A stretch of DNA of 21,853 bases from a virus: IMG/VR virus record IMGVR_UViG_3300028388_006123, positions 1-21,853 of that record; one strand, written 5' to 3'. The position numbers and the translations under genes were made by a program. Shown in pieces: positions 4,766 to 21,172 of this stretch. The first letter of the stretch is position 1. Each line of letters begins with the position of its first letter. The notes beneath the pieces are model-generated. The model was not told the DNA's origin, ran no database searches, and saw only the letters and a program-made list of their open reading frames with translations.

Positions 4766-6391
4766 ATGCGTTTGCAAAATGAGAAAGCTCCGGCTACCGA
4801 TAAAGAATCGGGGCTTCCCAAAAAATATTTTTCTTCTAAGCAGTCTGATTCGACCAAAGACAAACGCGCGGCGCATTTCAAAAAAAAGGCTAAAATGGAT
4901 GACGACAATCCAAAAGCCTATGAGCCTGCCCCTGGTGATGCAACAGCCAAGACGAAGCCAAGCAAGTACACCAAGAAATACAAGCAAATGTTTGGTGAAA
5001 ATTTGCAAACATTGCCAAGTGGAAAATTTGGGCTATCGCGTCGTGATATGCCACAGATTAAATCCACCTATGTTCCTGACTATCTAGCTTTTCTAAAAGA
5101 CCAAGGTATTAGAGTTCGCCACCTTGCCGTTGCAGTATCAAAACTCACGAACACACAAAAAGAGCTAGACCCCCAAAAAATTCAAGACTTGGCTACTGGT
5201 CTGCGGCCAGATGCCCTTGCCAAGCCGGTGATTGTGTCTAAAGACATGTTCATCTTAGATGGACACCACCGCCTTAACGCCTTGTTAAATATTGATCCTT
5301 CATACAAAGTCAAAGTGTACCAAGTCGATTTGCCTATTGCTGACTTGATTGACGTCACAAAGACGTATCCAAAAGTACGGTACAAGGAGCTCACTGAAAA
5401 AGCACCAAATACTGAAGATGCCATGAAACGCTACAAAGATGGTGATGCGGGCTTTAGTGACATTGTGCACCTAAAAGCCAAAGGTTTGATACCACGTGCA
5501 GATGGATCAAAACGTAAGTCAAAAAAATATCAAGAGTCTTTTTTGGGTGTTGATATTGTCGAGTTGGCTGAAGAAATGGACTGTCCACCTGCAACACAGG
5601 ACTTAGAGCTCAACACCAAAAATCGTAACAAAGCGATTGAAGCAGATTACATTCAGTATGGACCACTAAATGTGGATGAGCCGGGCGACTATTGGCAAAA
5701 AATTGCAAAATTTTGGGATACAACCGAAGAAGCGGCCAAGAAATCAAATTGTGGAAATTGTGTCGCATTTGATATTTCAGAGCGCATGAAAGACTGCATG
5801 CCCGGTGAAACTTCCGATGAAGATGGTGAACTTGGCTATTGTTGGATGCACCATTTCAAATGTCATTCGGCTCGGTCATGTAGAACATGGGCAAAGGGTG
5901 GTCCAATTACAGAAGACGAAGACTCTTTTGAGTGGCAAGAACGTGCGTTTTCCAAAAACACCGACGAACAAGCCTTCACACCAGCAAAAAATAAATTTGT
6001 GAGCGAAACACTAGAACAATTACTTGATGAAAAAACATCGTCAAAGACGATCAAAGCCATTAAGAACAAAGCCAAAGAAACAGGCATTGACTATAAAATT
6101 TTGAAAAAGGTTTTTGATCGTGGCGTTGCTGCGTGGCGCACGGGTCATCGTCCAGGCACAACACCTGTGCAATGGGGACTTGCGCGGATCAATTCGTTTG
6201 CTACGGGTGGCAAAACCCAAAAAACAGCCGATAAAGATTTGTGGGCAAAACACAAAGGCAAAGCAAACGAACAACAAGACTTGCCTATTCCAGAAGTTGG
6301 TTCGACCGAAACAGCGGTCAATTTTCGCAAAACCACACCTGGTCAGCCCAAACGTATCCTTTCATTCAAAGAGTATTTAAAAACACGCTAA
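4766..6391 (+). CDS. Virion-type protein with ParB-like domain and central Cys cluster
   Basis: A 541-residue multi-domain protein. Residues about 10-45 (ESGLPKKYFS...RAAHFKKKAK) match a short domain common in phage structural proteins. Residues about 105-185 resemble a ParB/Srx fold: KPVIVSKDMFILDGHHRLNA carries the I-L-D-G-H-H-R-x-x-A core. Residues about 326-375 hold six cysteines in CxxC and spaced arrangement (NCGNC, KDC, GYC, KCHSARSC), resembling the high-potential iron-sulfur-like patches of some phage virion proteins. Residues about 410-500 (AAWRTGHRPGTTPVQWGLAR, then SFATGGKTQKTADKDLW) form another domain typical of phage structural proteins. The protein ends in SFKEYLKTR, like the short F-K-E-Y/F tag of T4-like capsid-associated proteins. 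Its place ahead of other structural-type genes fits a packaged protein. The nuclease or ATPase activity of the ParB part is unproven. Confidence 0.8.
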   Translation: MRLQNEKAPATDKESGLPKKYFSSKQSDSTKDKRAAHFKKKAKMDDDNPKAYEPAPGDATAKTKPSKYTKKYKQMFGENLQTLPSGKFGLSRRDMPQIKSTYVPDYLAFLKDQGIRVRHLAVAVSKLTNTQKELDPQKIQDLATGLRPDALAKPVIVSKDMFILDGHHRLNALLNIDPSYKVKVYQVDLPIADLIDVTKTYPKVRYKELTEKAPNTEDAMKRYKDGDAGFSDIVHLKAKGLIPRADGSKRKSKKYQESFLGVDIVELAEEMDCPPATQDLELNTKNRNKAIEADYIQYGPLNVDEPGDYWQKIAKFWDTTEEAAKKSNCGNCVAFDISERMKDCMPGETSDEDGELGYCWMHHFKCHSARSCRTWAKGGPITEDEDSFEWQERAFSKNTDEQAFTPAKNKFVSETLEQLLDEKTSSKTIKAIKNKAKETGIDYKILKKVFDRGVAAWRTGHRPGTTPVQWGLARINSFATGGKTQKTADKDLWAKHKGKANEQQDLPIPEVGSTETAVNFRKTTPGQPKRILSFKEYLKTR

Positions 6392-9820: not shown

Positions 9821-10666
9821 ATGTCCTTAACGCTAGCCAACACGATAAATGACATGCGAGTCACCGTCAATCAACTGATTGACGATGTGTCCACCATTAG
9901 TATTGACTCTATTGGTGACTTGACCGATGTCGATCTTACAGGCCTTAATGACGGATTTGTGTTGGTCTATGATGCCCTTGATGCTCAATTTGAGCCCGTG
10001 GAATTTCAGACTGTGGGTGGGGCAAACAACCAAATTCAGTACAATCGCTTTGGGGATCAGTTTGCTGATGCCAACCTCACATTTGATTTCATCAACGCTA
10101 TACTTAGTGTACCCAACGCCAATGTGTCTAACATTGCCGCGTCCAATGTGGTGACCGAAGATTTGGTGGTTAACACCGGTGGCATAAACATTTTGAGCAC
10201 CAATACTGGTGATATAGTCACGCTTAATACCAATTCATTCACCACCAACACGATTGATGCGTCCACGTTGAATTTGGACTCCATTGTGGCCAACACTATA
10301 ACCACCAACAATTTGGTGGCCGAAGACATTCAGTCTAACACGGCGAATGTGGTGACTTTGACCGCAAACTCGATTACAGAAACATCAAGTCGAGCGTTCA
10401 AGGAAAATGTGGTGTTGTATGAAAGTGGGTTATCCACTGTGGTGGCCTTAGAGCCTATAACCTACACGTGGATAGGGCAGTCTGAACCCCACCTTGGCCT
10501 TATTGCCGAAGATGTGGCGGTGGTTGAGCCATTGTTAGTACAACAAAATGATGACGGCCAAGGCGTGGCTGTCAAATATAGTCGACTAGTCGTTCCACTG
10601 CTTGGTGCAGTCAAAGAATTATCCGATCGTATAAATAAATTAGAAGAACAAATATCTAACCTGTAG
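9821..10666 (+). CDS. Tail fibre protein with C-terminal S74 intramolecular chaperone
   Basis: A 281-residue short fibre, probably trimeric. The N terminus (IGDLTDVDLTGLNDGFVLVY) is the usual phage-fibre 'L-DVDL-G' repeat, followed by NNQIQYNRFGDQFADANLTF, another fibre motif. Residues about 95-185 are an Asn/Thr/Val-rich repetitive shaft (I-V-T-L-N-T-N pattern). The last 95 residues are an endosialidase-type chaperone (Peptidase_S74): the cleavage-site region SSRAFKENV, then HLGLIAEDV, VKYSRLVVPLLGAVKELSDR, and a short coiled coil (RINKLEEQI). In this family, self-cleavage before the Ser releases the chaperone once the trimer has folded. There is no cysteine, in sharp contrast with the next gene. 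Host-recognition role inferred from domains. Confidence 0.9.
   Translation: MSLTLANTINDMRVTVNQLIDDVSTISIDSIGDLTDVDLTGLNDGFVLVYDALDAQFEPVEFQTVGGANNQIQYNRFGDQFADANLTFDFINAILSVPNANVSNIAASNVVTEDLVVNTGGINILSTNTGDIVTLNTNSFTTNTIDASTLNLDSIVANTITTNNLVAEDIQSNTANVVTLTANSITETSSRAFKENVVLYESGLSTVVALEPITYTWIGQSEPHLGLIAEDVAVVEPLLVQQNDDGQGVAVKYSRLVVPLLGAVKELSDRINKLEEQISNL
10630..10637 (+). promoter_or_regulatory. T4-type late promoter, exact TATAAATA
   Basis: An exact match to the T4 late -10 octamer TATAAATA lies inside the last codons of the tail-fibre gene, 47 bases before the ATG at 10685. T4 spacing would put the start near 10643 and give a leader of about 42 bases that contains GAGG (10678-10681), a reasonable Shine-Dalgarno. 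It is the only exact octamer I found in the window. The overlap with coding sequence (Arg-Ile-Asn-Lys) means a chance match is possible. Confidence 0.55.
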
Positions 10667-10684
10667 TAGTCCACACCGAGGCAC

Positions 10685-13600
10685 ATGGCAGATCTAAAAG
10701 ACACAATTGTTGATGGCGCGTTACAATCCGATAGTTTAACGGTAGGACAACCACCTGAAACAAAAACCTATACAGCATATGCAAATGTCGAAAAGGGTGA
10801 GTTTGTCGCAGGCATTACATCGAACATTGCAAAACCCATTGACACCACCATTTGTTGTGTTCCTGATGTGACGTACCAACAATGTGAATGGGCATGTCAA
10901 GCAAAATTTGACTCTATTGAAGATGCGTATGAACTTGTTAGTTTTCAGCGTTGGTTGGGTCTTGAAGAAGACGACGTGTGTTTTTGCAACTGTGGTGGAA
11001 ACACCTGTTGTGGGGAGTATAGTTGCGAAATATTTGCATGCAAGTCCTTGCTTTGTTGTGGTGATGTCGAAGGTGTATTTAGATGTGGGTATCTTTGCAA
11101 TTGTATAAAACCTGTTTTTGGGGTAGAAACTACATGTCCTTTGCCATGCCCTGTGGGTGTGACGGGTTGGTGTGAAGGATATGAGCAAAAAGTATTTTCT
11201 TGCAAAGGCCATGACATGGCCACATTTTCGCTGAATCCATACAATATTGCACCTGGCTTTAGTAGATGTAGTGCATGTAGAATGATGACCGTGCGTCAAA
11301 GTATGGGCTTACATCCCACGCAATCGGTCAAAATTATGGAACCGTTTGACTACGATTGCTATCGTGATAAAGTCATCATGGCCTTTACTGTCGGCTATCA
11401 GTGTGCACGTGCGGTTGGAGATAACGCCCCATTTTGCTCAAGATATGGCTTTTGCTCGGCCTTTTGCTGTGACTACAATAGCGATCCAAATTGCTATGTG
11501 CACAATATAGATGACTGCGTACCTTGTTGGTATTGCAAATTAAAAACCGCGGCTAGAATTTGGACTGGCACAGTCAATGCCGCGGCGTTCACCACCGATA
11601 GAACGTTACCACAATACAAGTTCCACTGCGACCACCTTTCATGTTGCTGTTGTTGGACACCTCGATGTCCTGGTCTTGTAGACACATTTAGTACGTCATT
11701 GTGTGTGTATGACTGCTGTTGTGTCGGTGTCTTTGAAGATGACACCTGTTACCGTGATGGTGTGGCTTGTAGAATTTATATGCCTGACTATGAGTATTGC
11801 TCCGATAACCGTGAGTGCTATGGAATGTTTTCTTGTGCCCAAACAGAAGCCTACCGCTCTAGGAGTGAAAGTGCTGTAGGCTTTGGGGTAAGTCATTTTG
11901 GGTTATGGAGAGTTGGCCAAGATGGGGTTTATGTAGGTTTAAACTTTGGGTTTCAATGTGGTGGCTGTGGTGGTGCGTCTGCAAACACTCACCGTGATGC
12001 GTTGCTTTCATTTGTTGGAAAGCTAGAATCCAATGGAGCGTTTCATTTTTACAATCCATGTGATGAAGAAAGAGAACGAGTGGCCGCTCACCAATATGTG
12101 AGTGCTCACTATGGCCAATGCTCTTTGAATGACACCGTTGGAAAATATTCAATATGTCAAAGCGATACCTACGATTTGAATACCTATATTTTTAGAGGTC
12201 CATTCATGTCGTATGGTTATGATACGCCATGTCATGACGACACACTTTGCCAGACCATGGCATTTTTTGTGGAAAGTGGCAACTGTTTGGTCATGAAGCG
12301 CTACAAAATTCCACAGCTCAATGCGAGTGGATGTTTTGTGTCAAGTGCCGAAGGCTATACCCACAACACATCTCCGTATAGTTGTTGTGCTGTGTGTGTG
12401 GAAGACTTTTGCTTGTGTTGTGATGAAAATGCATGTTGCGAAGCCATTCATGGCTTTGGAAGTCGCGATCAACTAAATATGCCATTTTTGTGGAACTACA
12501 AGACGGGTCAGGGCATTTTGCGTGGCTGTCGTCATGAGTATTCTGAATTTGGCTCACATGCTATTCATTTCAACACCAACGATGGCAACATGGTGTCACA
12601 TTGCGTTGAAGAGCCCTGTTGCTTCATGTGTGCTGAATTCCGACGAGAAGATTCGGGATGGGATTATCAAATTCATGCCACGGATTGCAATCATGATCGT
12701 TATATAAAAATGATTCGTGATTGTCAGTGTTGCTTGAACCAATTTAACGATGCATGTCCAGAGCTACGCTGTTGCTACAGCAGTGACGGGTGTGACAATT
12801 ATGTCATTATGAGCATGCCCATCTACAACCCACCATTTTCTTGTGGAAATGTGACGTGTCAGTGCAATCAGTTTTACGTTTGTCGCTATTTCCAAAAATA
12901 CACCAATGTGTGCACGTGGGAAGAACTTGAGTGTACCGACGATTTGGGGTGTGTTTGCTCCACAATTTGTAGATGTCATTATTTTGACGGCCTTACAGTC
13001 TTTTGCGCGCCAAATGTCAATGGCTGTTGCTATCAATTATGCATGCCGTCATCTTGTTACAACACCGCCTGTGATAATGGATGCTGCACGGGATGTAATT
13101 ATCTTTGCACGAACTATTGGCGTGGTCAATGGATGATCGTCACAGGTGGCACGGGTGCAGGTCAAGTGCGTCAAATTTGCTGTAATTGTAGGGGATTGGG
13201 AAATTGTCCCATGTGCCTGAAAGTCTTTACACCATTTGACCCTGTGTTGGATAATACGTCCTGTATTGATTTATGTAGATGCTACGTACCTCTATGTGAC
13301 CTTGAGCGACCATGCATGTTGCTGTTTTGTAGTGAGCGTAATGCCTATGCATGCACTATGCGTAACACTTGCAAAAACTATGTCAAATTAGAACCTGTTG
13401 GCAATTCAAGCACTTCAACGTACAACCTTTATGTGTATCCTTACAAAGACGTATTTACGTGTGCTGGTAGAGACTTTTCAAAAGTCTATTTCCTATGCTT
13501 TGACCTTGAAGCCAATGGTGCATTTACAAACATCTGCGAGTGTTGTCTTTGCGTGATTCCTTTTGAGTCTTGTCATCGTACCGATGGACTTGATTCGCGT

Positions 13601-16102
13601 GGTGCACTTCATCAATGTGCCAATCGTCAATGTCACATTGATTACTACCTTGATGAAGCAAGACCTGCCAAGTGCAATGAAGAAATTGATCAAAGATTCT
13701 TTGATAGTTCCGACATTCAAGGCACCGGAAACCACCCCTGTGGGAACTTCCCTATTGTATGCACCTATTTACCAGGTGAAGGTCTTGGGTGCTATTTCTT
13801 GGGAATAAACGGTAAAGGAATTAACCGAGCGTCACGTCAAAGTGCCAATTGTAAACATACGGGTTCAGTGTGTTTTAGATGCGATGGCAATCAGATGCAA
13901 AATGTAGATGACGGCTTTGAAGTAGAAAATTACTACTATAATTGCTTTAACAGACACGATATGGCGTGTATAGACGACGCTGGTGGCGGAGGAGAATTTA
14001 GGGGTGGACAACAAATGGGGCAATATATGGGCTTCTGGCATTATTCTTGTGATTTTGCCAACACGGGCTGTCCAATTTCTATTGTTGGGCGTCAAGGTGA
14101 TGTAGGAAGGTATTGCGGTAGATGTCGGGGTATAAGTTGTAATCAGCAAATGATTTACCCTCTTTTGAAACGTACACATTTCCAAAAAGCAACAACTAAC
14201 ACATACAGAAATTGTCACAAATCGAAACTTGGGGTTTATAGCACAAGGGATTATATAGAACATGGCTTTGCACCACAAGTGTACCCAATGGGTGTGGCCA
14301 ACATAACAAGCCCTGGATATAGCTTTACGTGTGTCACCGAGCAGTGCGAAATCGTTGGGATTGCCGAAAGTTCTGCCCAAGAAGGTGAAACTTTCACAGT
14401 ACGACCAAATGGCTCAATAACCTCTAATACCTTCACGGGGCTTACGCCAGGTCGTCAATATTTCTATCAAACCTATGGCACGACAGATGCCAATTTACGT
14501 GCTTGTTTTGTCACAGCTGACCAACTACAATGTGGTCCAGGCGATGAGTATGTGAGAGTCGGCTGTGCGATTACTGCCAACACATTTAGTTTAAACCTTG
14601 CCTTTGAAACAGCAAATGCCGCGTCTATTTTTGCTGATCGTGAAGTCAACAAATGCATTCCTGGTGTACCAATAGAGCAATTCAAGACGCTTGAGTGTTG
14701 TGCTATGAGAATGTATGATGCTGGATGCGATGACTGTATTGGCAAACTCTGCTTACACCAACTAAAAGTGACTGCCGCACGTACAGGTGAATATTTTGGT
14801 GAAATTAAAACCTGCGTTAGAAACAACGATCATTCAAAAACTAATTACTATAATTGTTACTACTGCTGCCCACAACAAGGTGTTTGCCTCATGGGTGTGC
14901 ATGATGAACATTGTAGTAGGATTTCGCGTAGTGGTAATGACTTTGCTTTTTGGAAAGTCACTGTGCCTGGTGATCGCATGTACCGCCTTAGCGCCGTATG
15001 TGTCGAAGCAGAAAATGACCTAACCCCAATAAATTTTTGTAGTGGAATAAACCAAGCAAGATTACCATTTGGTTTAGTACGTTATGACCTTGCTATTGGT
15101 CGCTCATATTGGCTAGATGAGTTGACTTGTTGTAAACCAACATTCTTGCAACACTTATCTTGCTTTGGAAATTATCCAGCGCGACCTTGCGGTATATGTC
15201 AAAGGTGTAAACTATGGCCATACAATGAACACTGTTGCGATTGTTTTGCGTGTATGCACGAAGGTACGTGTGATTGGATGAATGACAGTGGCATTGTGCC
15301 AAAGTCTCTACGTGACAATCCATGTCGCAATCGCGTGAGCAATAATCTTTGTAGACAAAGCTTGGCCGATCAAGACAATTGTCGTCATCATGAACGTCCA
15401 TGTATAGAAGGCTACCACCATAGTTGTGTGCTCTATGATGCAGAATGGAGTTGCTATTTCCAACGATGTGGGTGGCCTTCAAACCACCGCCGTGTGCTTG
15501 TATATACTTCTAATGCTGGCAAACGAAATCGATTTGAGCCTTGCTTCCACTTTGGTGAATGTCGAGATTGTAGTTGCGATTACTTTTGCTATGTTGCCTG
15601 TTGTTCGAGACATTGGTGTTGTTTATTTAATTGTTTTTACGACACACATACCAACCAAATGTCTGAAAGTGAAAAAGTGTATGACGGGCTTGAAAATAAT
15701 AATCCTTGCTGTTGTGATTTTGGTGCACAAGCATGTCTTGGCTGTCAAATTTCAAATGGGGATTTGCCAATAGACTTCAATCAATGGATTCCATCTTTTT
15801 ATGGCAAGAGCGACTATCCTTATGTGTGCTGTGGTATAAATCCACACCAAGAATGTCATGACGTCCAAGTGCCTTTTTATGAAAACCCAAATATGGACTA
15901 TATGCTATGTTGGTGTGGTGAAAAAGCATGCTGTGAGTTTGCCTATGGGTTACCAAATGTGCTTTATCCAGGGCGAACTTATTATGTTGGCGTCAACTAC
16001 CATGTCTGCTTTGGAAAAGAACAGATGCGTAGAGGAACTAATGGTGCTCGCTTCGGGGCAAAAGTGATTTTCGACGTATTCTGTTGCGAAGACTTCTGCT
16101 AA
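10685..16102 (+). CDS. Giant cysteine-rich virion-type protein (1805 residues, about 11% Cys), likely adhesin
   Basis: One uninterrupted 5418-base frame with GAGG upstream. I counted about 197 Cys by eye, with about 26 adjacent CC pairs, several CCC and one CCCC near residue 320. Cys density is high at residues about 58-390, 565-960 and 1340-1805, and lower between. The first 57 residues have none and carry TYTAYANVEKGEFVAG, a typical phage structural start. Near 812-850, WRGQWMIVTGGTGAGQVRQ followed by a Cys-rich stretch and DNTSCIDL matches the common virion domain G-TGAGQ-R-I, with Cys where Thr/Val/Tyr is usual. Near 1222-1265, IVGIAESS through TGLTPGRQYFYQ matches another virion beta domain and is Cys-free. 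No signal peptide, TM or enzyme motif is seen. The gene follows the fibre gene, so a receptor-binding or fibre-surface role is likely. Whether the Cys form disulfides or bind metal is unknown. Confidence 0.85.
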   Translation: MADLKDTIVDGALQSDSLTVGQPPETKTYTAYANVEKGEFVAGITSNIAKPIDTTICCVPDVTYQQCEWACQAKFDSIEDAYELVSFQRWLGLEEDDVCFCNCGGNTCCGEYSCEIFACKSLLCCGDVEGVFRCGYLCNCIKPVFGVETTCPLPCPVGVTGWCEGYEQKVFSCKGHDMATFSLNPYNIAPGFSRCSACRMMTVRQSMGLHPTQSVKIMEPFDYDCYRDKVIMAFTVGYQCARAVGDNAPFCSRYGFCSAFCCDYNSDPNCYVHNIDDCVPCWYCKLKTAARIWTGTVNAAAFTTDRTLPQYKFHCDHLSCCCCWTPRCPGLVDTFSTSLCVYDCCCVGVFEDDTCYRDGVACRIYMPDYEYCSDNRECYGMFSCAQTEAYRSRSESAVGFGVSHFGLWRVGQDGVYVGLNFGFQCGGCGGASANTHRDALLSFVGKLESNGAFHFYNPCDEERERVAAHQYVSAHYGQCSLNDTVGKYSICQSDTYDLNTYIFRGPFMSYGYDTPCHDDTLCQTMAFFVESGNCLVMKRYKIPQLNASGCFVSSAEGYTHNTSPYSCCAVCVEDFCLCCDENACCEAIHGFGSRDQLNMPFLWNYKTGQGILRGCRHEYSEFGSHAIHFNTNDGNMVSHCVEEPCCFMCAEFRREDSGWDYQIHATDCNHDRYIKMIRDCQCCLNQFNDACPELRCCYSSDGCDNYVIMSMPIYNPPFSCGNVTCQCNQFYVCRYFQKYTNVCTWEELECTDDLGCVCSTICRCHYFDGLTVFCAPNVNGCCYQLCMPSSCYNTACDNGCCTGCNYLCTNYWRGQWMIVTGGTGAGQVRQICCNCRGLGNCPMCLKVFTPFDPVLDNTSCIDLCRCYVPLCDLERPCMLLFCSERNAYACTMRNTCKNYVKLEPVGNSSTSTYNLYVYPYKDVFTCAGRDFSKVYFLCFDLEANGAFTNICECCLCVIPFESCHRTDGLDSRGALHQCANRQCHIDYYLDEARPAKCNEEIDQRFFDSSDIQGTGNHPCGNFPIVCTYLPGEGLGCYFLGINGKGINRASRQSANCKHTGSVCFRCDGNQMQNVDDGFEVENYYYNCFNRHDMACIDDAGGGGEFRGGQQMGQYMGFWHYSCDFANTGCPISIVGRQGDVGRYCGRCRGISCNQQMIYPLLKRTHFQKATTNTYRNCHKSKLGVYSTRDYIEHGFAPQVYPMGVANITSPGYSFTCVTEQCEIVGIAESSAQEGETFTVRPNGSITSNTFTGLTPGRQYFYQTYGTTDANLRACFVTADQLQCGPGDEYVRVGCAITANTFSLNLAFETANAASIFADREVNKCIPGVPIEQFKTLECCAMRMYDAGCDDCIGKLCLHQLKVTAARTGEYFGEIKTCVRNNDHSKTNYYNCYYCCPQQGVCLMGVHDEHCSRISRSGNDFAFWKVTVPGDRMYRLSAVCVEAENDLTPINFCSGINQARLPFGLVRYDLAIGRSYWLDELTCCKPTFLQHLSCFGNYPARPCGICQRCKLWPYNEHCCDCFACMHEGTCDWMNDSGIVPKSLRDNPCRNRVSNNLCRQSLADQDNCRHHERPCIEGYHHSCVLYDAEWSCYFQRCGWPSNHRRVLVYTSNAGKRNRFEPCFHFGECRDCSCDYFCYVACCSRHWCCLFNCFYDTHTNQMSESEKVYDGLENNNPCCCDFGAQACLGCQISNGDLPIDFNQWIPSFYGKSDYPYVCCGINPHQECHDVQVPFYENPNMDYMLCWCGEKACCEFAYGLPNVLYPGRTYYVGVNYHVCFGKEQMRRGTNGARFGAKVIFDVFCCEDFC

Positions 16103-16121: not shown

Positions 16122-16241
16122 ATGCCTGTCAAGTTAATTTGGACGTTATTGATTAACGGTGGTTTTCGGCTGTTGATGCATATTGTGAACAAGTTGTTTG
16201 CGTACCTTGAAAAAATAAAACTCAAAAAACCAAAATCATGA
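16122..16241 (+). CDS. 39-residue hydrophobic small protein, single predicted TM or amphipathic helix
   Basis: ATG to TGA gives 39 residues, starting MPVKLIWTLLINGG and ending EKIKLKKPKS. About 20 residues are hydrophobic with scattered charge, followed by a Lys-rich tail, so it could be a small inner-membrane peptide with the tail in the cytoplasm. The stop overlaps the next ATG by 4 bases (ATGA), a translational-coupling arrangement used elsewhere in this genome, which supports a real gene. No Shine-Dalgarno is obvious. It might be a holin-like or lysis-timing peptide or a membrane anchor, but there is no direct evidence. Confidence 0.6.
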   Translation: MPVKLIWTLLINGGFRLLMHIVNKLFAYLEKIKLKKPKS

Positions 16242-16564
16242 GTAGAGAATTAAAAGAAACCAAAGAGCTGTTAAGTTTTGTTTTTGCCTTAGTCTATGCG
16301 ACGTCAAAAACAATGCAAGACGGAAAATTTGAATACCGCGAAGCGTTGAATTATGTGGGTGCAGTGCGTAAGGTAGCCAACGCGGTTAATGGCATTGACG
16401 CAGTACCCGCTGAAATTGCTGATTTGACAAACGAAGAAATTGATGAGCTAAAAGCATTCATCGTGGAAGAATTTGACATCGAAAACGATGTGCTTGAGCA
16501 AAACATTGAAGAAATGCTTGACCTCGCGGCAGATTTCGCAAAAGTGGCGATTGCTTTGACATAA
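16238..16564 (+). CDS. Small helical phage protein, unknown function
   Basis: An acidic, all-alpha protein of 108 residues without cysteine. It has the pattern ELKETKELLSFVFALVYATS, then MQDGKFEYREALNYVGAVRK and LTNEEIDELKAFIVEEF, with evenly spaced hydrophobics. Similar small helical proteins occur near tail and fibre genes of aquatic phages, but I cannot assign a function. Its ATG overlaps the stop of the 39-residue ORF, so expression is probably coupled. The gene ends directly at a terminator, making it the last member of the late fibre transcription unit. Confidence 0.75.
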   Translation: MSRELKETKELLSFVFALVYATSKTMQDGKFEYREALNYVGAVRKVANAVNGIDAVPAEIADLTNEEIDELKAFIVEEFDIENDVLEQNIEEMLDLAADFAKVAIALT

Positions 16565-16568: not shown

Positions 16569-16587
16569 AATAGAAGCAAAACGTTTG

Positions 16588-16626
16588 AAACCCATGTGAT
16601 TTGTTTCGCATGGGTTTTGTTTTTTC
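16588..16626 (+). terminator. Rho-independent terminator
   Basis: AAACCCATG (16588-16596) pairs perfectly with CATGGGTTT (16609-16617) over a 12-base loop, followed by a U-rich run (TGTTTTTTT). It closes the late fibre/Cys-rich transcription unit, 23 bases after the stop of the 108-residue gene. Confidence 0.88.
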
Positions 16627-16641
16627 GGCATGGTCAACCAA

Positions 16642-16649
16642 CTAAATAC
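16642..16649 (+). promoter_or_regulatory. Possible late promoter placing the start on the ATG (CTAAATAC)
   Basis: CTAAATAC lies just after the terminator, and exactly four bases separate it from the ATG at 16654. If the T4 late geometry holds (octamer at -13 to -6), transcription would begin on the A of that ATG, giving a leaderless message. The same spacing is seen at 21543. Confidence 0.45.
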
Positions 16650-16653
16650 TACG

Positions 16654-17136
16654 ATGGCCGATCAAAATCCAACTTTACAGACCGATGTCGAATTGCTCAA
16701 AAAAGACGTTGAGCAAATTTCAGAATTTCTCAAGCGCCTAGATGTGGCGATTGAAAAACTAAGTGAAGTTTCCACGGGCATATCTAAAATTATAGCCGTC
16801 CATGACAAACGCATGGAAACCGTAGAACAGACAGATAAACAGCTTTTTGAGATCATTGATGTCGAGCGCACCAAAAACGAAAGTGAGCGTGGTCGATTGT
16901 ACAAGCGTATTGACGAAGTGGAGCGTCAGGTCAATGATAGAATAACGGACCACCAGCATGATGTACTCACCAAACTTGGCGACATTGAAGTACAAAATTC
17001 TCAAATTTTCCAAAAGTTAGAAACTAGAGTCCATTCCCTAGACAAATGGCGATGGCTCATGATTGGTGGTGGTGCTGTTGCAGGCTTTCTTGCCAACTAT
17101 ATCTTAGAAATTATACAGGTTCTATTTCCCTCTTAG
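16654..17136 (+). CDS. Coiled-coil protein with C-terminal transmembrane segment (T4-like phage family)
   Basis: A 160-residue, mostly helical protein without cysteine. The pattern LKKDVEQISEFLKRLDVAIE, then KLSEVSTGISKIIAVHDKRM, is one I recognise from a widespread family in T4-like phages. The C terminus ends in LDKWRWLMIGGGAVAGFLAN plus YILEIIQVLFP, a single TM helix preceded by the family's WRW motif. An upstream in-frame ATG at 16630 would add eight residues, but 16654 is preferred: it gives the family-like start MADQNP and fits the promoter-like CTAAATAC. Neither start has a clear Shine-Dalgarno. It is probably a membrane-tethered rod facing the cytoplasm. A lysis or membrane role is possible but not shown. 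Confidence 0.8.
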   Translation: MADQNPTLQTDVELLKKDVEQISEFLKRLDVAIEKLSEVSTGISKIIAVHDKRMETVEQTDKQLFEIIDVERTKNESERGRLYKRIDEVERQVNDRITDHQHDVLTKLGDIEVQNSQIFQKLETRVHSLDKWRWLMIGGGAVAGFLANYILEIIQVLFPS

Positions 17137-18214: not shown

Positions 18215-19465
18215 ATGAGAACTGTTATTAAAAAAAATGGTCAAAGAGACGCTTTTGACCATACGAAAATTATTCGTGCTATTGAACTTGCGATGAGCCG
18301 CACCGATTACAAAGAGTATGGTGTTGCCAAAGTGATTGCCGAACAAGTGACCGAAGATTTGTTTCATGGATTGAGTGCCGATACGATGCCAACCGTAAAC
18401 GACATACACGATCTAGTCGAAAACAAACTCATGGACAACAAACTTAACACGGTCGCCAAGGAATATATCCTGTATAGGGATTCCAACAAGCCTAATATTT
18501 TTAAGAAGCGTATTTCACTCAAGCCATACGAGTATCCAGACCTAGAGTCATACGTGGACGCAATCCGTCATTCCTATTGGGTTCACACAGAATTTAATTA
18601 CAACTCCGATATTCAAGACATTCAAGTCAATCTTGACCCAAGTGAACGTCAAGCTGCTATTCGTGCGATGCTAGCCATTTCTCAAATTGAAGTGGCCGTC
18701 AAGACATTTTGGGGCGACATCTATAAGAGAATGCCCAAGCCTGAAATTGGCAGTGTTGGGGCAACATTTGCAGAGTCAGAAGTACGCCACGCCGATGCCT
18801 ATTCCAATCTCATCAAATTGCTTGGCCTAAACGAAGAATTTGAAAGCCTTATGGACGTGCCTGTCATGAGGCGTCGAATCAAGTATTTGGAGAAAGCCTT
18901 GTCAACCTCCAAAACTGTCGAAGACCGTGACTATTTTGAGTCAGTGATTTTGTTTTCCATGTTCGTTGAAAATGTGTCTTTGTTTTCGCAATTCTTAGTC
19001 ATCATGTCTTTCAATAAATTTAAAAATGCGTTGAAAGGCATATCAAATGCAGTAGAAGCAACATCAAAAGAAGAGCAAATCCACGCAGAATTTGGATTTG
19101 ATCTAATCAACGTAATCAAAAAAGAAAACCCTAATTGGTGGACGGATCAACTAGTGGAAGACCTAAAACAAGCTACAATCGAGGCCTTTGAGGCCGAAAA
19201 GGGCATAGTCGAGTGGATGTTTGAAGCCGGCGACCTCGACTTTCTATCGAAAGATCAGACCCTTGCATTCATAAAAAACCGCTTCAATCAATCGCTTGAC
19301 CAAATAGGCATTGAGCCCATTTTTGACGTGGACGAAAGCCTACTAGAAAAAACGGAATGGTTTGATGACGAAACCCTAGCAACCAAGCATACCGATTTTT
19401 TCAACAAGCGAAGTATCAATTATACGAAACGCCAACAATCTGTAACTGAAGACGACTTATTTTAG
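18215..19465 (+). CDS. nrdB: Ribonucleotide reductase small subunit NrdB with N-terminal ATP-cone
   Basis: Class I R2 subunit, which generates the radical used by NrdA to make dNTPs. It has 416 residues, about 90 more than a simple R2 core. Residues 1-90 are an ATP-cone (VIKKNGQRDAFDHTKIIRAI), an allosteric nucleotide domain normally found at the start of NrdA. The R2 part shows likely metal ligands Glu159, Glu189, His192, Glu252, Glu287 and His290, with the radical Tyr196 kept four residues after His192. The first ligand is Glu rather than the Asp of E. coli. The C terminus (SVTEDDLF) is the acidic tail that docks on NrdA. NrdA begins 3 bases after this stop. The fusion type is known from Leeuwenhoekiella blandensis NrdB and relatives. 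Confidence 0.93.
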   Translation: MRTVIKKNGQRDAFDHTKIIRAIELAMSRTDYKEYGVAKVIAEQVTEDLFHGLSADTMPTVNDIHDLVENKLMDNKLNTVAKEYILYRDSNKPNIFKKRISLKPYEYPDLESYVDAIRHSYWVHTEFNYNSDIQDIQVNLDPSERQAAIRAMLAISQIEVAVKTFWGDIYKRMPKPEIGSVGATFAESEVRHADAYSNLIKLLGLNEEFESLMDVPVMRRRIKYLEKALSTSKTVEDRDYFESVILFSMFVENVSLFSQFLVIMSFNKFKNALKGISNAVEATSKEEQIHAEFGFDLINVIKKENPNWWTDQLVEDLKQATIEAFEAEKGIVEWMFEAGDLDFLSKDQTLAFIKNRFNQSLDQIGIEPIFDVDESLLEKTEWFDDETLATKHTDFFNKRSINYTKRQQSVTEDDLF

Positions 19466-19468
19466 ATT

Positions 19469-21172
19469 ATGACACGAAAGCCATTTGATTGGATAACTAA
19501 GGATACCATAACATTCTTAGAAAGGGGATACTTGTCGGAAGACGAGTCTCCAAAAGAAAGAATTCGAACGATTGCAGACCATGCTGAAAAATTGCTAGGC
19601 ATAAAAGGCTTTGGTGACAAGTTTTTCGACTATATGAGTCGTGGATTTTACAGCCTTTCATCGCCTGTATGGGCAAATTTTGGTAAAGCACGTGGATTGC
19701 CCGTGTCATGCTTTGGATCTCACATCGAAGACAATATCGAATCTATTCTTTACACCCAAGCTGAAGTGGGTGAAATGTCAAAAATGGGTGGTGGCACGTC
19801 TGCCTATTTTGGAAACATACGACCGCGTGGAAGTGCTGTTAATGACAATGGCAAAGCACCTGGTGCAGTACATTTCATGAATTTGTTTGAGTCTGTGGTA
19901 GATAATATTTCACAAGGTAATACTAGGCGAGGAAGATTTTCACCATATTTGCCTATTGAGCACCCCGATATTGAAGAATTTTTGCAAATTGGCACGGAAG
20001 GATTTCAAATTCAAGACCTCACTCATGGTGTAACAGTGACCGACCAATTCATGGAAGATATGATTGGTGGTGACGCAGAAAAAAGAAAATTGTGGGCAAA
20101 AGTGATTCAGCGTCGTGGAGAAATTGGCTACCCATACATCATGTTTCATGACACGACCAATGACGGTGCACCTGATACCTATAAAGACCATGAGCGCACG
20201 ATTGTTGCTTCAAATTTATGTTCTGAAATAGCATTAAGTGCAAATGAAGAAGAGTCTTTTGTATGTGTCTTGTCTTCAATCAATTTGCTTCATTGGGATG
20301 AAATTGTGCAGACTGATGCTATTGAAACGATGGTGTATTTTCTTGATGCTGTGGTAAGTGAGTTTTTAGCCAAACTAGAAGCCATTGGTTCTGAAAGCAC
20401 CATAGAAGGCGATCGTGCATGGAATTTTATGAAAAAAGCCTACAATTTCGCAAAAAGCCAAAGGGCACTTGGTCTTGGCGTGCTGGGTTGGCACTCCCTA
20501 TTGCAGGCCAAGGGGTTTGCGTTTGCTTCGACTGATGCAGCCAAACTCAACGTTCAAGTGTTCAAGAAGCTTCAACAACGATCATACCAAGCTTCGACCG
20601 AACTTGCCGAACGCTTTGGAGAGCCCAAATTGTTGCGTGGGTATGGTCGTCGAAATGTCACCTTAAACGCGATAGCACCAACCACGTCAAGTGCTTTTAT
20701 TCTTGGTCAAGTCTCACAATCTATTGAGCCTATTTGGTCAAATTGCTATGTCAAAGATATGGCCAAGCTCAAGGTGACGATAAAAAATCCGGTGCTTAAA
20801 GCCTTGCTTCAAGACTTAGGCCGCGATGACAAACAGACGTGGGATTCAATCAAAAAGCATGATGGCTCGGTTCAACATTTAGACTTTTTGGATCAGCACC
20901 AAAAAGATGTATTCCGCACGTTTGCTGAAATCAATCAATCTGCCATTTTGAATCAAGCAGGGTCGCGTCAACAATACCTCGATCAAGCACAGTCGCTTAA
21001 TCTTATGATACCACCAGACATGGCCGTCAAGGAAATCAATCAACTGTTGATTGACGCATGGAGACTCAAGATAAAAACGTTATATTATCAACACTCCATG
21101 AATTCAGCACAAGCCTTTGCACGTAAGAAGTTTCAGATTGACGATTTACGTTGTGAAGCCTGTGAAGGGTGA
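19469..21172 (+). CDS. nrdA: Ribonucleotide reductase large subunit NrdA (no ATP-cone)
   Basis: Catalytic subunit of class I RNR, reducing ribonucleoside diphosphates. It has 567 residues, shorter than E. coli NrdA (761) mainly because it has no ATP-cone and starts directly in the R1 fold. Active-site residues are present: Cys81 (PVSCFGS), Asn249-Cys251-Glu253 (SNLCSEIAL), Cys266 (FVCVLSSINL), and the radical-transfer Tyr pair in LYYQHSMNS near 543. The tail carries the redox pair Cys562/Cys565 (RCEACEG). The barrel motif NAIAPTTSSAFILG is intact. It looks functional, not truncated. With nrdB directly upstream, allosteric on/off control has probably moved to NrdB. The order nrdB-nrdA is the reverse of the usual operon. 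Confidence 0.95.
   Translation: MTRKPFDWITKDTITFLERGYLSEDESPKERIRTIADHAEKLLGIKGFGDKFFDYMSRGFYSLSSPVWANFGKARGLPVSCFGSHIEDNIESILYTQAEVGEMSKMGGGTSAYFGNIRPRGSAVNDNGKAPGAVHFMNLFESVVDNISQGNTRRGRFSPYLPIEHPDIEEFLQIGTEGFQIQDLTHGVTVTDQFMEDMIGGDAEKRKLWAKVIQRRGEIGYPYIMFHDTTNDGAPDTYKDHERTIVASNLCSEIALSANEEESFVCVLSSINLLHWDEIVQTDAIETMVYFLDAVVSEFLAKLEAIGSESTIEGDRAWNFMKKAYNFAKSQRALGLGVLGWHSLLQAKGFAFASTDAAKLNVQVFKKLQQRSYQASTELAERFGEPKLLRGYGRRNVTLNAIAPTTSSAFILGQVSQSIEPIWSNCYVKDMAKLKVTIKNPVLKALLQDLGRDDKQTWDSIKKHDGSVQHLDFLDQHQKDVFRTFAEINQSAILNQAGSRQQYLDQAQSLNLMIPPDMAVKEINQLLIDAWRLKIKTLYYQHSMNSAQAFARKKFQIDDLRCEACEG

Follow-up and report, generated by a model that had tools for sequence, protein, structure and literature searches.

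The 21,853-base viral sequence analysed here (the window, which at positions 1-21,853 is the entire IMG/VR record) carries a gene for a 1,805-aa protein with 197 cysteines (10.9%), and this content is an extreme outlier which is not due to chance. Two regions of the protein match domains of phage fibre-type proteins, and in one of them the cysteines occupy positions that behave like serine and threonine positions. We tentatively propose that this T4-related phage uses the gene late to make a virion protein of the fibre or adhesin type, in which about half of the usual serine and threonine would have been swapped for cysteine and which would be hardened by disulfides after lysis.

The cysteines are encoded by 125 TGT and 72 TGC codons and form 26 runs of at least two residues, among them a CCCC at residue 320 and two CCC at residues 344 and 1675. 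The recount agrees with the initial annotation of positions 10685-16102, which had given about 197 cysteines, about 26 CC doublets and one CCCC in a single 5.4-kb frame. The 2,904 genes of 244 related viral loci had a mean cysteine content of 0.93%, and the richest of the 110 genes on related viral contigs that code for 800 aa or more reached 2.36%. In 173 proteins of at least 400 aa with a tested phage fibre-type domain the mean was 0.6% and the maximum 1.9%, which places the 1,805-aa protein at z = 26. Internal repeats were not found in the protein. It had also been pointed out that neighbouring proteins of 71, 108, 110, 160, 214, 281 and 290 aa contain no cysteine. Counting confirmed this (with 160/168 aa for the fourth), but it is unremarkable since 17-34% of the like-sized proteins on related contigs are also free of cysteine; the remaining neighbouring proteins have one to seven cysteines each.

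A mutational bias toward TGY codons was considered and rejected. TGY makes up 10.9% of the codons in the frame of the cysteine-rich gene versus 0.8% in the neighbouring genes, whereas the other two frames (2.8% and 6.2%) are close to those of the neighbours (3.6% and 5.3%). The synonymous codon usage of the gene correlates with that of the neighbouring genes at 0.954. Because only the coding frame shows the TGY excess and the codon usage is native, the enrichment is a trait of the protein and not of the base composition. The features discussed are compiled in Table 1.

Table 1. Features in and around the cysteine-rich gene (positions refer to the window)
Feature	Position	Strand	Remarks
Peptidase_S74 (intramolecular chaperone) fibre protein, 0 Cys	9821..10666	+	Adjoins the cysteine-rich gene upstream; Pfam 2.7e-6; PHROGs tail fibre/baseplate matches
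Late promoter match, T4-type, TATAAATA	10630..10637	+	Sole exact match in the window
GAGG, Shine-Dalgarno-like	10678..10681	+	3 nt before the ATG; seen in the sequence itself
Gene of the cysteine-rich 1,805-aa protein	10685..16102	+	One clean frame, ATG to TAA; native codon usage; frame-specific TGY
Cysteine-free N-terminal 56 residues	10685..10852	+	First cysteine is residue 57; possible virion-attachment end
GTGAGQ beta-domain, residues ~792-863	13058..13273	+	Profile 28.9 bits native, 45.7 bits with C to S
GLTPG fibre-type domain, residues ~1189-1301	14249..14587	+	Profile and phmmer
YPGRTYYVGV stretch	15962..15991	+	2.6-5.8 bits, shuffled maximum -0.5; motif only
108-aa protein, 0 Cys	16238..16564	+	Next gene 3' of the cysteine-rich gene
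Intrinsic terminator-like hairpin (14 bp stem, T run)	16586..16619	+	After the 108-aa gene

A relative over the whole length of the protein was found neither in Pfam, PHROGs, NCBIfam and PDB nor by tblastn of INPHARED with the native or the C-to-S query, nor in peptide-pattern scans of IMG/VR and GTDB or in 30 records of related phages. Around gp61, NrdB and UvsX in 240 viral loci there was no long cysteine-rich gene in sense orientation; the cysteine-rich frames found there were mostly antisense or belonged to small proteins, several of them zinc-finger-looking. Two domains could be placed by profile. About 1,600 of the 1,805 residues lie outside these domains and lack an assignment because there is no whole-length homologue.

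The motifs GTGAGQ and GLTPG, which we take to be motifs of phage fibres, were tested on the protein as profiles. The GTGAGQ profile was built from about 120 phage proteins fetched by a motif scan of IMG/VR. It scored 28.9 bits against residues 776-880, whereas controls with the motif kept and the flanks shuffled reached 10.6 +/- 2.5 bits (maximum 21.9). Masking the motif brought the score down to almost nothing; much of the profile score is thus due to the motif. The domain, at residues ~792-863, shows the motif G-T-G-x-G-Q-x-R-x-I together with its flanking strands, and the family has no Pfam match. An AF2 model of the domain consists of beta strands (pLDDT 71.5). Its fold neighbours in BFVD include Caudovirales tail and S74-type proteins with a probability of ~1.00 but E >= 5.6e-3, a suggestive result that falls short of significance, and PDB gave no significant structural match to the model. 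One of the proteins with this domain (L294) belongs to phrog_376, 'tail protein'. The domain is widespread in phage proteins (IMG/VR loci L242-L363), some of which contain as many as three copies, and none of the Pfam models is matched consistently across the family.

The GLTPG profile, first built from only 11 IMG/VR proteins, scored 33.5 bits against residues ~1189-1301 (flank-shuffled controls at most 25.5 bits), and a second profile from 35 sequences scored 33.4 bits. In this region the elements GIA..., GLTPGxxYY... and VG.A[IL] occur in this order. With the native protein as query, phmmer retrieved L413 (E = 1.8e-5), which like L454 is a T4-related contig coding for tandem propeller fibres that end in a GLTPG domain. 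The YPGRTYYVGV stretch close to the C-terminus may possibly be a degenerate second GLTPG domain, although the resemblance is weak. We rejected the idea that the protein is itself a marine beta-propeller fibre, as the native sequence gave no propeller-blade match; the N-terminal 'ASG...VNxDGTV' domain of the propeller fibres had no match either. An AF2 prediction for residues 1160-1805 from the single sequence was uninformative (pLDDT 29).

Judged by its genes the source phage is T4-related. Upstream of the cysteine-rich gene lie a DNA polymerase fragment, UvsX, a gp41-type helicase, several small proteins and the S74 fibre protein; downstream follow the 108-aa protein, for which the searches gave no significant family, a coiled-coil protein, a gp61-type primase, NrdB, NrdA and a RuvC-like resolvase. 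The best identities to other phages are 61% for UvsX and 42% for gp61, and no close kin was found. The slot of the cysteine-rich gene, between a conserved 133-aa gene and gp61, is filled by variable, fibre-like genes in more distant relatives. NrdA and NrdB are 73-76% identical to genes of otherwise different-looking phages. For NrdA, genes on contigs binned as Bacteroidetes also show 73% identity, a weak hint at the host; these identities suggest that the two genes are exchanged as a pair. In a Pfam scan of this part (window 18215-21172) NrdB has an N-terminal ATP-cone and NrdA (567 aa) has none. With its N-terminal part phrog_451 matches the coiled-coil protein (DUF7201, 16630-17136) that precedes the primase, and with its C-terminal part the primase itself; the two are apparently fused in other phages. 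A 541-aa protein (4766-6391) contains a ParB-like region, a cysteine cluster (CGNC...C...GYC..H..KC...SC) and a C-terminal DUF5824 stretch.

The exact match to TATAAATA is situated 47 bp 5' of the ATG of the cysteine-rich gene; over both strands the expectation for the window is 0.77 matches, and the promoter evidence consists of this single 8-mer. Together with the strong terminator-like hairpin downstream it makes late expression of the gene likely. The sequence CTAAATA is found ten times on the plus strand of the window versus twice on the minus strand, in many cases at the end of a gene or just ahead of a start (positions include 4725, 6948, 9685, 16099, 16642, 18099 and 21543, plus strand) and sometimes within CTAAATAC; CTAAATA or CTAAATAC could be a late-promoter variant of this phage. 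The two profile-tested domains, the adjoining S74 gene and the late-promoter match support a fibre- or tail-type protein, in line with the fibre or adhesin identity suggested in the initial annotation.

The GTGAGQ domain allowed the cysteine positions to be compared with those of homologues. Replacing all cysteines of the domain by S, N, T, Q or A raised the profile score from 28.9 to 43-45.7 bits, and the lowest scores (28-31 bits) were obtained with C, P, W, F or L at these positions. Changing random non-cysteine residues to serine lowered the score to 22.8 +/- 4.2 bits. In the alignment (A1) the 12 cysteine columns that can be aligned contain no cysteine in 81 homologues but mostly T, S and A, and a scan of other phages for cysteine at the first position after the GTGAGQ motif gave no protein with the domain. 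The cysteine content of the approximately 120 homologous proteins does not exceed 2.4%. Thus homologues with normal cysteine content at the same positions, which the initial annotation would have counted against its view, do exist for this one domain; the anomaly remains. Because the homologues have no cysteine in these 12 columns, the enrichment appears to be a derived feature of the 1,805-aa protein.

The overall composition agrees with such a replacement. Serine and threonine amount to 11.1% in the protein versus 21.3% in the homologues, but with cysteine included the totals are 22.0% and 21.8%. The agreement is in part a coincidence since alanine and valine are also low; compared with the homologues Ala, Val and Ile are low and His, Tyr and Phe are high. 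From the replacement scores, the Thr/Ser/Ala columns and these totals, cysteine seems to stand in for small polar residues, taking the place of about half of the usual serine and threonine. A single domain of 72 residues supplies the substitution evidence; in the GLTPG domain the change of cysteine to serine gave no gain (33.5 to 30.5 bits).

We therefore put forward the following scheme as a tentative explanation of these features. The 1,805-aa protein would be a large, late-expressed virion protein of the fibre or adhesin type made of beta-rich tail-type domains, with about half of the usual serine and threonine changed to cysteine, mainly at semi-variable polar and probably surface positions. 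The chain would fold in the reduced state inside the host cytoplasm. After lysis, oxygen would convert the dense surface thiols to intra- and inter-chain disulfides, which would covalently harden the fibre or its contacts, comparable to the disulfide-linked virion of phage Milano. It counts against the scheme that the other virion-type genes in the window are Cys-poor, unlike in Milano, where the enrichment extends to several structural proteins. A bolder version of the scheme is conceivable but rather doubtful: about half of the Ser/Thr surface of one virion fibre would have become cysteine and form a protein-wide disulfide or thiol armour, a redox-hardened or thiol-reactive organelle for host binding that arises only outside the reducing cytoplasm and goes far beyond any described phage.

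We considered several alternatives to disulfide hardening. First, most surface thiols could remain unpaired and, through thiol-disulfide exchange, bind the phage covalently to a disulfide- or thiol-rich host surface. This is compatible with the fibre-type domains and with cysteines at polar, probably exposed positions that are spread without a pattern. However, such thiols oxidise fast in oxygenated water, and the sequence cannot tell them from structural disulfides; we consider this alternative unlikely.

Second, cysteine and histidine could bind Zn, Cu, Fe or Fe-S clusters, as the initial annotation had proposed. The 197 cysteines, a histidine content of 2.7% versus 1.0% in the homologues and nine CxxC...CxxC arrangements within 40 residues fit this proposal. 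On the other hand the spacing of the cysteines, with 24 C-x2-C pairs versus 22.8 expected, shows no CxxC excess, which argues against classic metal sites. Neither a ferredoxin-like CxxCxxCxxxC motif nor a strong periodicity was found in the protein, there are just five CxxH and six HxxC, and the cysteine positions of the GTGAGQ domain act like Ser/Thr positions. Apart from the raised histidine the proposal thus finds no support in the sequence, and we rate it as quite improbable.

Third, the protein might not belong to the virion at all but act inside the host as a cysteine-rich effector or decoy, or sequester cysteine or metal. That no whole-length homologue was found and that the gene lies amid replication and nucleotide genes would suit such a role, whereas the two tail-type domains, the adjoining S74 gene and the late-promoter match speak against it, leaving it with little probability. 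Even less probable is an assembly or drift artefact without function: the gene is known from a single metagenomic record and has no close relative, but 1,805 codons are open, codon usage is native, the TGY excess is restricted to the frame and both domains have intact motifs. Finally, a late decoding of UGY codons as serine or threonine by a phage tRNA, giving an ordinary Ser/Thr-rich fibre, would account for the equal S+T+C totals and the S/T-rich cysteine columns but can practically be dismissed, because, of the five columns with the strongest S/T conservation, four retain Ser/Thr encoded by normal codons and none has cysteine, no tRNA was found in the window, and the ribonucleotide reductase and primase genes use cysteine normally. 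We are not aware of a precedent in phages for the late reassignment of a sense codon.

Should the cysteines pair after lysis as proposed in our scheme, the protein would be a natural beta-rich fibre that evolved by wholesale replacement of Ser/Thr by cysteine and would offer a case in which redox-triggered maturation of a phage adhesin can be tested. It would extend the dense disulfide stabilisation of the Milano type to a giant fibre-type protein, and it would raise the question how about 200 thiols remain unpaired during folding. The data suggest that fibre domains tolerate heavy cysteine substitution at their surface. Disulfide-rich virions are already known; in the open-licence literature we did not find a description of a fibre-type protein with ~11% cysteine that arose by Ser/Thr replacement.

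Cysteine-enriched, disulfide-linked virions have been described for the Agrobacterium phages Milano and 7-7-1, which have contractile tails (PMC10491603, PMC10811340, PMC12796354). The disulfides of Milano form cross-links in neck, collar, capsid, sheath and baseplate and make the virion more stable (PMC10491603, PMC10811340). The earlier claim that the protein has no precedent was therefore too strong, although cysteine amounts to just 1.4% of the proteome and ~2.4-2.6% of the structural proteins in these phages (PMC10491603, PMC10811340, PMC12796354). A relationship to Milano or 7-7-1 was not detected by tblastn of INPHARED. The proteins of uncultured phages that share the match to the GTGAGQ profile at residues ~792-863 (L257, L304, L294) belong to the cysteine-poor homologues described above, unlike the 1,805-aa protein. 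The GLTPG domain is shared with beta-propeller/GLTPG fibre-like proteins of marine T4-related phages (L413, L454) and others (L451); these are Cys-poor and carry the domain mostly at the C-terminus, whereas in the 1,805-aa protein it is internal and not accompanied by propeller repeats. A 414-aa phage protein (L345:1319-2560, minus strand), the contig of which also carries a GTGAGQ protein, is likewise enriched in cysteine (5.1%), but has half the density of the 1,805-aa protein and no noticed similarity to it. In Milano and 7-7-1 the cysteines are spread over many proteins; here they are concentrated in one chain, a putative virion protein with Cys-poor neighbours, and their density is four to five times that of the structural proteins of Milano.
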